Origin: Dehalogenimonas lykanthroporepellens BL-DC-9
GTDB lineage: Bacteria > Chloroflexota > Dehalococcoidia > Dehalococcoidales > Dehalococcoidaceae
Reading direction: 5' to 3'
DNA length: 64,000 nt
Assembly (NCBI GenBank): GCA_000143165.1
Contig: CP002084.1
Location: 992,001-1,056,000 of the forward strand
The notes beneath the pieces are model-generated. The model searched no databases, had not been told where the DNA came from, and saw nothing but the letters and a program-made list of their open reading frames with translations. This document shows, one piece after another, positions 34,587 through 49,189 of this stretch; within the stretch, counting starts at the first letter, position 1; each line of letters opens with the position of its first letter. The position numbers were made by a program, and so were the translations under genes.

Positions 34587-34598
34587 GTCTTCATTGAC

Positions 34599-34671
34599 GG
34601 GACCGCGTGACTGGCGGAAGTGGAACTGACCACATGAAGTGCGGCCCGAAGTTCAGCCGACCGCCTGGGCA
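34599..34671 (+). promoter_or_regulatory. ZTP/ZMP riboswitch (pfl motif)
   Basis: Matches the pfl/ZTP aptamer. P1 is GGGACCGC (34599-34606) with GCGGCCC (34641-34647). The conserved GTGACTGGCGG follows at 34607-34617. P2 is GTGG/CCAC (34620-34623, 34630-34633). The 3' domain is CCGCCTGGGCA at 34661-34671, whose CGCC can form the pseudoknot with GGCG. The aptamer senses the purine-pathway intermediate ZMP/ZTP, which builds up when 10-formyl-THF is short. The gene it controls here is not a known folate or purine gene. Confidence 0.88.
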
Positions 34672-34698
34672 TCACCGCTCAGGCGGTTATATATTTTC
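34660..34698 (+). terminator. riboswitch expression-platform terminator
   Basis: ACCGCCTG (34660-34667) pairs with CAGGCGGT (34680-34687) and is followed by TTATATATTTT. The 5' arm is the aptamer's own CCGCCTG, so ligand binding should block the terminator and switch the gene on. Confidence 0.75.
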
Positions 34699-42141: not shown

Positions 42142-43250
<1,109 letters not shown>

Positions 43251-46094: not shown

Positions 46095-46123
46095 TTGACC
46101 GATGGCCCACGGATGGGTATAAT
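46095..46123 (+). promoter_or_regulatory. strong promoter of the double-cubane operon leader
   Basis: TTGACC (46095-46100), exactly 17 bases, TATAAT (46118-46123). Predicted transcript start near 46130. Confidence 0.8.
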
Positions 46124-46163
46124 GCGGGCGTCCTCACGTAATTCGGGAAGGGAGGTGAAGAGC

Positions 46164-46196
46164 ATGAACAGAGTGCCGTTCCATCGTCGCACCTGA
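46164..46196 (+). CDS. 10-residue leader peptide ORF
   Basis: ATG with GGAGGTG eight bases upstream; the product would be MNRVPFHRRT, rich in Arg with a His. It starts within the stem AAGAGCA/TGCTCTT, so ribosome occupancy would change the fold of the leader and could decide termination at 46298-46322. Confidence 0.5.
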   Translation: MNRVPFHRRT

Positions 46197-46297
46197 CGAA
46201 GCGCTCTTTCGGCGCGGGTACCGCGCCCAGGGATTGCTCTTGCCCCGTTCCCGCCCATTTCGGCCGGCTGACCAGTCGGCGTCCGATGACCCTCCAG

Positions 46298-46322
46298 CGG
46301 CGGCATGAAACCGCCGTTTTTT
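46298..46322 (+). terminator. intrinsic terminator of the leader RNA
   Basis: CGGCGG (46298-46303), 7-base loop, CCGCCG (46311-46316), then six T. It lies 72 bases before the next ATG. Confidence 0.85.
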
Positions 46323-46394
46323 CGTCAGGCAAGCGGTAATCCCCTCGTGTCCGGTTAACAGCGTAATCAAAATTTAGAGAGGAAAACCGCAACA

Positions 46395-47669
46395 ATGACT
46401 TTGACCGCAAACGAACAGATGTGGAAAGAAATGGGTATCGACCTGGAGTCCCACGGCCAACTGATGAACGCTCTGGGCCCCATTTACGGAGAAATCTACC
46501 TCAGCCAGCAGAACCGCCCCCAGGGAATGGGTTTTTATGATTTCGTCGTCGGCGATATCCACGGTATCCGGGTCAAGGAGCTCCGGGAGCATTCCAAAGA
46601 TGGCGGCAAGGTGGTGGCCACCTACTGCGTCTTCGTCCCCGAGGAGTTCTGCTGGGCCGCCGGGGCCATTCCCGTCAGCCTGTGCGCCGGCACCCAGTTT
46701 TCAGTACCGGTTGCCGAAGAAGTACTGCCGCGCAACACCTGCGCCCTGATAAAATCATCCTACGGCTTCAAGCTGGGTCGATTGTGCCCGTACGTCCAGG
46801 CCAGCCATCTCATCGTCGGCGAAACCACCTGCGACGGCAAGAAGAAGATGTTCGAACTCCTGGCGGAACAACAGCCGGTTTATGTCATGGAAGTGCCCAA
46901 CAAGCGCGGTACTGCCGGCCGGGCTTTGTGGCAACAGGAAGTCCGCGATTTCAAAGCCAAAATTGAGGAACTGACCGGCAACGAAATCACCGCCGAAAAC
47001 CTCGGGGAGGCTATCAAAAAGGTCAACGCCCGTCGCCGCGAGTTCCGCCGGCTGTCCGTCCTGCGTTCCGCCGACCCGGCTCCGATATCCGGCAAGGACG
47101 CCCTGCTGGCCACCCAGGTATCGATGTATGACGATGTGGAACGCCAGACGCAGATGATCACCGCCCTCAATGACGAACTGGAAGAGCGGGTGAAAAAGGG
47201 AGAAGGCGTAGCACCCAAAGGCGCCAAACGCATCCTCATTTCCGGTTCACCGATGGCTATTCCCAACTGGAAACTGCATCACATCGCAGAGTCTGCCGGC
47301 GCGGTCATCGTCGGCGAAGAGTCCTGTACCGGTTCCCGTTTCTACAACGAACTGATACCGGAAGGCATCGGCTACCTGGAAGACATGCTGACGGCACTGG
47401 CCGACCGCTATCTGAAGACCAATTGCGCCTGCTTCACGCCCAACACAGAACGGCTGGACGACATCATCAAGATGGCCCGCGACCTGAAGGCCGACGGCGT
47501 CATCCACTACAACCTGCAGTTCTGCCACACCTACGCCAACGAAGCCGTTCAGGTAGACCGGGCGCTGGCCGAAGCCGGCATTCCCCTGCTGAGAGTGGAA
47601 ACCGACTACTCCGATGAGGACGCCGGTCAGCTCAAGACGAGAATCGACGCCTTCCTGGAAATGCTATGA
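46395..47669 (+). CDS. double-cubane-cluster type 2-hydroxyacyl-CoA dehydratase/benzoyl-CoA reductase-like protein
   Basis: 424-residue HgdB/BzdN-family protein of the single-subunit double-cubane cluster protein (DCCP) type. Conserved cysteines occur in VVATYCVFVPEEFCWAAG, RNTCALIKSSYG, VGETTCDGKKK, VGEESCTGSRF, NCACFTPN and HYNLQFCHTY. DCCPs hold a [8Fe-9S] cluster and, once charged by an ATP-driven activator, reduce small molecules at very low potential; the natural substrate is unknown. The activator gene follows. AGAGGA precedes the ATG. Expression depends on read-through of the leader terminator unless an unseen promoter exists. Confidence 0.88.
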   Translation: MTLTANEQMWKEMGIDLESHGQLMNALGPIYGEIYLSQQNRPQGMGFYDFVVGDIHGIRVKELREHSKDGGKVVATYCVFVPEEFCWAAGAIPVSLCAGTQFSVPVAEEVLPRNTCALIKSSYGFKLGRLCPYVQASHLIVGETTCDGKKKMFELLAEQQPVYVMEVPNKRGTAGRALWQQEVRDFKAKIEELTGNEITAENLGEAIKKVNARRREFRRLSVLRSADPAPISGKDALLATQVSMYDDVERQTQMITALNDELEERVKKGEGVAPKGAKRILISGSPMAIPNWKLHHIAESAGAVIVGEESCTGSRFYNELIPEGIGYLEDMLTALADRYLKTNCACFTPNTERLDDIIKMARDLKADGVIHYNLQFCHTYANEAVQVDRALAEAGIPLLRVETDYSDEDAGQLKTRIDAFLEML

Positions 47670-47845: not shown

Positions 47846-48607
47846 ATGACCACCGCGGGGCTGGATGTGGGTTCGCGCACCATCAAACTGGTGCTGTTCG
47901 ACAACGGCATCTTATCATCGGCGGTGACCGACAGCGGTTTGAAACCGCTGGAACGCTGTCGCCGTCTGTTGCACAATAAATCTTTCGATAAACTGACGGT
48001 CACCGGTTACGGCCGGGATCTGGTGGCGCCGGAGCTTTCCGGCGCCACCATCTCGGAAATATCCGCCCAGGCGGTGGCCGCCCGTTTCCTGTACCCCGAT
48101 TCTGCCGGCGTCATCGACATCGGCGGCCAGGACTCCAAAGTCATCCGCCTGAACCCCGGTGGCGGGGTATCGAAGTTCGAGATGAACGACCGCTGTGCCG
48201 CCGGCACCGGCAAGTTTCTGGAGATAATGGCACGGGCGCTGGAATTGAGCATCGACGAATTCGCCCAAACAGCGCTGGACGCCGAACGGTCGGTAACGCT
48301 AAACTCACTCTGTACCGTTTTTGCCGAAAGCGAAGTGGTATCACTCATCAACAAGGGTGAAGACGCCCACGCCATCGCCCTGGGACTGCACCAGTCAGTA
48401 ACGACCCGGGTGGCCGGCATGGCGCGCCGGGTTGGAGTAAGCGACAGGCTGGTATTCGCCGGCGGCGGCGCCCGGAATCCGTGCCTGCGCCGTTTGCTGG
48501 AAGAACGGCTGGGATTGAGCGTGACTGTACCTGAAGAACCACAGATTACCGCGGCGCTGGGCGCCGCCATCATCGCCGCCAGCGGCAAGAATCAAGGAGA
48601 ACAGTAA
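47846..48607 (+). CDS. ATP-dependent activator of the double-cubane protein (ASKHA, HgdC/BadF type)
   Basis: 253-residue acyl-CoA dehydratase activase. ASKHA phosphate loops GLDVGSRTIKLVLFD and VIDIGGQDSKVIRL, the adenosine loop FAGGGARNPCLRRLL, and the cluster cysteines in NDRCAAGTGKFLE and SLCTVFAESEVVSLI. A homodimer binds one [4Fe-4S] cluster and uses ATP to push electrons to its partner, here the preceding DCCP. Separated from it by 176 bases containing a dispersed repeat; no good ribosome site precedes the ATG. Confidence 0.92.
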   Translation: MTTAGLDVGSRTIKLVLFDNGILSSAVTDSGLKPLERCRRLLHNKSFDKLTVTGYGRDLVAPELSGATISEISAQAVAARFLYPDSAGVIDIGGQDSKVIRLNPGGGVSKFEMNDRCAAGTGKFLEIMARALELSIDEFAQTALDAERSVTLNSLCTVFAESEVVSLINKGEDAHAIALGLHQSVTTRVAGMARRVGVSDRLVFAGGGARNPCLRRLLEERLGLSVTVPEEPQITAALGAAIIAASGKNQGEQ

Positions 48608-49189
48608 ATGTCCGAAATCATCGACGCCCGGGGCAAGCCCTGCCCCCAGCCGGTACTGCTGACCGGCCAGGCCCTGAAAAAGGCCGATGAAGTATCCATC
48701 ATCGTGGACAACGAGACCGCCCGGCAGAACGTGGCCAAGTTCGCCCGGAGCCGGGGATGCGAAGTAAACGAAACCGCCCGGGAAGACGGCACCACTCTTA
48801 GGCTGACCCGCACCTCGGCCTGCGCGGTTGCCGACACAGCCCATACCGGCGGCAGTACCGTTATTTTCATCGGCGCCGACATCATCGGCCGAGGTGAAAA
48901 CATCGAGCTGGGCAGGCTTTTGATGCAGAGTTTTCTCAATACCCTGCAGTCATTGCCCGACCGGCCGGAGAGCCTCATCTTCATGAACAACGGCGTCAAG
49001 CTGGTGGCCGAGGACTCTCACGTCCTGGGTGAACTGAAGCAACTGGCCGAAGCCGGGGTGGAACTGCTGGCCTGCGGCACCTGCCTGTCCCGCCTGGGGC
49101 TGTCCGACAAGATAGCCATCGGCCAGGTATCCAACATGTTCACCATCGCCGACGTCATGATGAAAGCCGGCAAGGTGGTCAGCCTCTGA
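48608..49189 (+). CDS. yedF: YedF-like sulfurtransferase (TusA + DsrE-like domains)
   Basis: 193-residue two-domain protein. The N-terminal TusA domain (1-70) has the motif DARGKPCPQPVL with the persulfide cysteine (Cys13). The C-terminal half (80-193) is DsrE/DsrF-like with VELLACGTCLSRLGL. Proteins of this layout are annotated as selenium-metabolism YedF, but no selenium genes are near. It begins directly after the activator stop with an AAGGAG site, so it is the third gene of the DCCP operon; a role in sulfur delivery for the cluster is a guess. Confidence 0.88.
   Translation: MSEIIDARGKPCPQPVLLTGQALKKADEVSIIVDNETARQNVAKFARSRGCEVNETAREDGTTLRLTRTSACAVADTAHTGGSTVIFIGADIIGRGENIELGRLLMQSFLNTLQSLPDRPESLIFMNNGVKLVAEDSHVLGELKQLAEAGVELLACGTCLSRLGLSDKIAIGQVSNMFTIADVMMKAGKVVSL

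Follow-up and report, generated by a model that had tools for sequence, protein, structure and literature searches.

Ribosome-mediated transcription attenuation of the trp/his type combines a translated short ORF, tandem control codons, alternative pairings of the leader RNA and a terminator, and in the classical attenuators that respond to starvation the tandem control codons stand before genes of the same element. A different kind of leader element was reportedly described by Thanbichler and Boeck in 2002, a SECIS-like element before E. coli selA that was proposed as a SelB target and is said to act by translational repression with no leader ORF. The bacterial SECIS itself is characterized in PMC1088965 as a hairpin just 3' of the UGA with a small apical loop containing G. 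The leader analyzed here, which precedes a double-cubane-cluster reductase operon in Dehalogenimonas, shares features with all of these systems, and judging from its sequence and that of its relatives we consider it likely to be a ribosome-mediated transcription attenuator whose control codon is a selenocysteine UGA.

The leader and the operon in the window

The window, a stretch of 64,000 nucleotides, comes from a genome whose 1,686,510 bases form one contig. A sequence-only reading of this stretch had placed upstream of an HgdB-like gene a consensus promoter, a short ORF of 10 codons with an ideal ribosome site, long-range pairings involving the ORF start and a T6 terminator, and all of these parts were recovered (Table 1), the ribosome site being a strong one. 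Transcription would start near 46130. The leader ORF (46164-46196, stop included) has GGGAGGTGA immediately 5' and encodes MNRVPFHRRT followed by UGA. The ORF is present as described; the earlier reading missed that its UGA is probably a selenocysteine codon and that the ORF may extend to 46271. Similarly, a reductase gene does lie behind the leader, but the relation of the regulated genes to selenium had been overlooked.

Table 1. Coordinates of the leader parts and of the genes that follow, in window positions
Feature	Position	Strand	Remarks
Sigma-70-type promoter TTGACC-17-TATAAT	46095-46123	+	consensus match 11/12
Region 1: leader ribosome site and ORF start, 5' strand of helix P1	46144-46164	+	
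10 codons MNRVPFHRRT	46164-46193	+	
UGA, proposed selenocysteine control codon	46194-46196	+	decoding presumed
ORF continuation upon UGA readthrough	46197-46271	+	second stop UGA 46269-46271
SECIS-like hairpin GGCGCG-GGUAC-CGCGCC	46211-46227	+	loop 20 nt 3' of UGA
Region 2: 3' strand of P1, possible alternative pairing with the terminator	46235-46253	+	antiterminator unsupported in window copy
Intrinsic terminator	46296-46322	+	stem 46296-46318, T6 46317-46322
Double-cubane-cluster reductase (HgdB-like), first controlled gene	46395-47669	+	NF040772, 500 bits
Activase (TIGR00241), reductase partner	47846-48607	+	family match
YedF, selenium-metabolism protein (TIGR03527)	48608-49189	+	family match

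The segment 46127-46327 folds with -86.7 kcal/mol (z -2.50), a stability equaled by 3 of 200 shuffles. Region 2 is bound in this fold to the ribosome site and start codon (about 46144-46164), which gives the P1 duplex (z -3.0); none of 200 shuffles of its 3' strand paired as strongly. A pattern consisting of ribosome site, short ORF, UGA and a hairpin with an RGU loop, which was written after the leaders had been seen, matched both strands of the 64-kb window only at this leader, and found nothing in 20 shuffles of the plus strand. The leader had not been recognized as a known riboswitch, and the Rfam scan returned no family at gathering score and, at E<=5, only a chance match to mir-9014 on the opposite strand. 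A known riboswitch or 6S RNA was rejected on this absence of a match, and the hit to a known RNA family that would have refuted the sequence-only reading did not occur. Elsewhere in the window there are a ZMP/ZTP riboswitch (34597-34677, 57.8 bits) and, on the minus strand (42142-43095), a 317-residue ORF which, judged by eye, we take to be IS110-type transposase-like.

Distribution and conserved parts of the leader

The leader is present in all eight genomes of the genus Dehalogenimonas. DNA searches detected it in six of the seven genomes other than that of the window, and the seventh copy (G005) was located via its reductase. Three further leaders came from other genera of the order and three from the wider class, and a covariance model was built from 14 leaders, with reductase leaders only as training. 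Against 393 genomes of the class this model gave 23 matches with E<1e-8 in 22 genomes, nine of which were new, i.e. absent from model training, while the weaker matches among 57 class genomes (E<=0.05) are probably for the most part due to chance. Among 400 genomes of the phylum there were matches in 11, two of them new. In addition, the pattern scan of 80 distant loci carrying reductase relatives detected the leader in three (L064, L100 and L074); the first two are copies of leaders already known, and L074 belongs to a MAG of unassigned phylum. Inspection by eye revealed no leader at six loci where the reductase is present (L019, L020, L021, L023, L026 and L027), and in the three genomes of a sister genus neither leader, reductase, SelB nor tRNA-Sec was found.

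Several other elements resemble the leader. Apparently decayed second copies occur in L175 (1276-1450) and, at the same place on the reverse strand, in L176; these precede a Fe-S protein (HdrC-like, CCG domain) and have a single UGA and an altered loop, and no terminator was seen in either. In L166 (G249, 1500-1600) the genes for a DUF3798 protein and an ABC transporter are preceded by a weak model match (E 3e-4) made up of a hairpin and the ORF MLILNRRT-UGA; this match may represent an RRT-UGA subtype. About 500 bases 5' of the reductase of L024, on the reverse strand, a short ORF (MKRRT-UGA) with ribosome site and hairpin precedes what appears by eye to be a YedE-like gene, and is possibly another, terminator-less member. 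These four elements were excluded from the set of 27 leaders considered below, which is made up of L074, the eight Dehalogenimonas leaders and 18 from elsewhere in the phylum.

The first stop of the leader ORF is UGA in all 27 leaders, and the ORF is exactly 10 codons long in 21. Fifteen leaders carry a tandem UGA-NNN-UGA, with the second UGA 18 nt from the hairpin loop in eight, 20-21 nt in six and 26 nt in one. Among the 12 leaders with a single UGA the distance to the loop is 18-21 nt in nine (the genus, including the window copy, and L074) and 32 nt in L157, L161 and L164. The first UGA is 32 nt from the loop in the three leaders before YedE and the one before an OsmC-like gene, and the terminator search found none in these four; a terminator was assigned in 22 of 27. 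The loop, GGUAC in the window, starts with RGU in all leaders except L015 and L165 (25/27). Downstream of the UGA the frame is open for 23-33 codons in 27 of 27, and the other two frames reach 23 open codons or more in 12 and 14 leaders. The stop that closes the extended frame is UAG in 18 leaders, UAA in five and UGA in four. Because two post-UGA frames are in use between groups, the frame itself is not strictly kept. The peptide sequence differs between genera, FHRRT being kept within Dehalogenimonas with synonymous changes, and protein sequence conserved on both sides of the UGA, as expected of a selenoprotein gene, is not seen across the 27 leaders.

Conservation and covariation in related leaders had been named as checks on the sequence-only reading; ORF and stems are kept, so the outcome that was to refute it did not occur, and both P1 and the hairpin covary. 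Across the 18 leaders that do not belong to the genus, 90.9% of the pairs of P1 and hairpin taken together are standard; eight pairs have both partners changed, no shuffle reached the covariation score, and sliding the partners lowers pairing to 52% or less. Taken singly, P1 is stronger than shuffles in most leaders, with L016, L160, L165 and L074 missing p 0.05. P1 has -23.1 kcal/mol with its own region 2 versus -19.7 kcal/mol with that of other leaders, a small advantage which is expected since the ribosome sites are alike.

In most leaders region 2 is also complementary to the 5' side or the loop of its own terminator, in a sequence that varies from leader to leader, as with GAAGAACCUC and GAGGUUCUUC in L160 and L162, or CAGAAGCU and AGCUUCUG in L163. 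The mean energy is -20.6 kcal/mol with the own terminator versus -16.6 kcal/mol with foreign ones (n=22, terminators hand-set in 12). This pairing is no better than shuffles in the window copy (z +0.4), is unsupported in L165 and L174 and is not significant singly in several other leaders; the sequences thus support an antiterminator across the set, not in the window's own copy. When ribosomes were represented by masking, the window copy was predicted to form mainly P1 if free or with one ribosome at the UGA, and masking start and UGA together was predicted to yield antiterminator pairing (at least four expected pairs) in 20 of 22 leaders, the window included. Some antiterminator pairing is predicted in 15 of 22 leaders even when free, and therefore the contrast is clear in part of the set only; with region 2 masked the antiterminator disappears, which is true by construction.

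Another pairing was noticed in the genus, where GGGAUUGC (46230-46237 in the window) can pair with GGUAAUCCC (about 46334-46345), 3' of the terminator, and the other seven members can pair GGGACUGC with CAGUCCC or CAGUUCC after the terminator. This GGGACUGC-type pairing occupies the same place in all eight members, with both sides changed in the window. It reaches p<0.05 in one of eight, and hiding of the reductase ribosome site in none of the eight; a second, translational level of control is not claimed.

Selenium-linked genes and selenocysteine machinery

The genes behind the 27 leaders encode 18 double-cubane reductases, three YedE proteins, five permeases and one OsmC-like protein. YedE, a putative selenium transporter, was recognized by TIGR04112 with 472-479 bits (cut-off 200). 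The five permeases are all SaoE-like, at 39-71 bits, far under the cut-off of 325, and that of L159 matches ArsP_1. For the reductases of L016-L018, L022, L025 and L028 and of the remaining genus members, the assignment is based on 67-97% identity to the window protein instead of a family scan. In L163 (784-1362, reverse strand) the reductase behind the leader ends after 192 residues, reflecting either a split gene or an assembly error.

The covariance model matched not only more reductase leaders but also those before the three YedE genes and the five ArsP/SaoE-like permeases. Because no YedE leader had gone into its training, which used reductase leaders alone, the appearance of YedE behind new matches points independently to a selenium theme. 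According to PMC5322559, YedE is reported from selenium-using organisms only, and one of the species studied has selenium genes linked to those for the reductase and the activase. The proposed control codon fits the pathway of the genes behind, with UGA, tandem in 15 of 27, and a SECIS-like hairpin before selenium-linked genes.

The formate dehydrogenase genes of leader-bearing genomes have one in-frame UGA each. By eye, this UGA is followed after 18 nt by a GC-rich stem with the loop GGUCU or AGUUU at 15 of 15 loci, which fall into two homologous groups and hence do not count as 15 independent cases. All eight Dehalogenimonas genomes, that of the window (G000) included, have a SelB scoring above cut-off and a clear tRNA-Sec, and papers on this genus describe Sec machinery together with a Sec formate dehydrogenase (PMC4918011, PMC13390414). 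tRNA-Sec was detected in 21 of the 22 class genomes with a strong leader match versus 235 of 371 without a match, a co-occurrence weakened by kinship and shared genes. In G352 (88% complete) the leader is present and tRNA-Sec was not found. The window leader agrees with a bacterial SECIS in hairpin position and loop, and its genome has the Sec machinery; we infer that the leader UGA is decoded as selenocysteine.

Proposed attenuation by selenocysteine supply and its alternatives

We postulate that a ribosome starting on the leader would reach the UGA after about 10 codons, and in many relatives would meet two UGAs with one codon between them. Aided by the SECIS-like hairpin, SelB and Sec-tRNA would compete with release factor and decode UGA as selenocysteine. 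Given ample Sec-tRNA, the ribosome would pass the hairpin and region 2 up to the second stop, and while over region 2 would render it inactive, such that the terminator forms (OFF). If Sec-tRNA is scarce, ribosomes would pause or finish at the UGA and a second ribosome, queued one footprint back at the start codon, would cover region 1; region 2 would then be available to the 5' side of the terminator, and transcription would run on into the selenium-linked genes (ON). With no translation, regions 1 and 2 would pair and the terminator would form (OFF). The queue is proposed because P1 survives one ribosome at the UGA in the predicted folds, so that the ON state needs a second one; given the size of a ribosome footprint, a 10-codon ORF puts the ribosome at the UGA about one footprint ahead of that at the start codon, and P1 would stay open. 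We lean towards this direction of control, ON when selenocysteine is scarce. It also seems fairly probable that the leaders form a regulon of attenuators gauging the 21st amino acid via one or two recoded UGAs and a SECIS hairpin, in which the 10-codon length of the leader ORF fits one ribosome queued behind another, and that enzymes, transporters and permeases with a link to selenium are under their control in Chloroflexota and perhaps in other phyla.

The same parts could work with reverse polarity, UGA decoding opening P1 when selenium is plentiful (ON) and release at the UGA re-forming it (OFF). The predicted formation of P1 with one ribosome at the UGA agrees with this, and the reductase, YedF and permeases could be needed only during selenium use; however, a ribosome that reads on would mask region 2, which the antiterminator requires, and tandem control codons in front of genes for one and the same element are like the classical starvation attenuators, which makes this polarity possible but rather doubtful. 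Repression in the style of the E. coli selA leader, by SelB and Sec-tRNA bound to the hairpin and with no UGA decoding, would suit the SECIS-like hairpin and genomes that encode SelB, but is unlikely as it leaves the UGA-ended short ORF, the tandem UGA, the open frame and the terminator unexplained. That the leader senses its nascent peptide or a translation inhibitor, P1 being opened by a ribosome otherwise stalled in the ORF, is a quite improbable reading: it is the UGA, the hairpin and the selenium-linked genes that are kept from genus to genus, not the peptide, even if FHRRT is kept in the genus with synonymous changes and P1 hides the ribosome site. We give very little credence to a functional micro-selenoprotein of about 35 residues, considering that, although all 27 leaders have an open frame containing U or UxU, no protein sequence is conserved between the groups, that conservation after the UGA falls where RNA pairing constrains it, and that a terminator then follows in 22 of 27.

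A riboswitch would give no reason for the UGA being invariant, for the hairpin spacing or for the open frame beyond the UGA, and a free small RNA leaves these features and the terminator position unexplained. From the three options of the sequence-only reading only the leader-peptide attenuator is supported, the ORF and ribosome-site pairing, though not the peptide, recurring across genera and the terminator in 22 of 27.

If attenuation by selenocysteine supply is correct, selenocysteine would join the amino acids gauged in this manner, with a stop codon as the gauge. It would offer a direct handle on bacterial selenium sensing and a natural reporter for selenocysteine decoding, and would connect a selenium signal with the genes for the double-cubane reductase, YedF, YedE and the ArsP/SaoE-like proteins, which are poorly understood. 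In open-licence papers and reviews we found no report of a SECIS/selenocysteine leader attenuator.

The proposed attenuator resembles the trp/his type in its short translated ORF, the tandem control codons of many copies, the 1:2 pairing, the putative 2:terminator pairing seen over the set and the intrinsic terminator, and differs in having as control codon a recoded stop, UGA, which is accompanied by a SECIS-like hairpin within the leader and occurs only once in the window copy. With the SECIS of the Sec formate dehydrogenases of the same genomes it has in common the UGA, the spacing of about 18 nt, the GC-rich stem and the RGU pentaloop, whereas no selenoprotein lies 3' of the leader hairpin and the leader mostly ends in a terminator. 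Like the E. coli selA element, it is a SECIS-like hairpin, a proposed SelB target, in the 5' leader of a selenium gene, but the leaders described here have in addition a UGA-ended ORF, a terminator and helices that may alternate. Both attenuation and the SECIS are established separately, and no report combining the two was found among open-licence papers.
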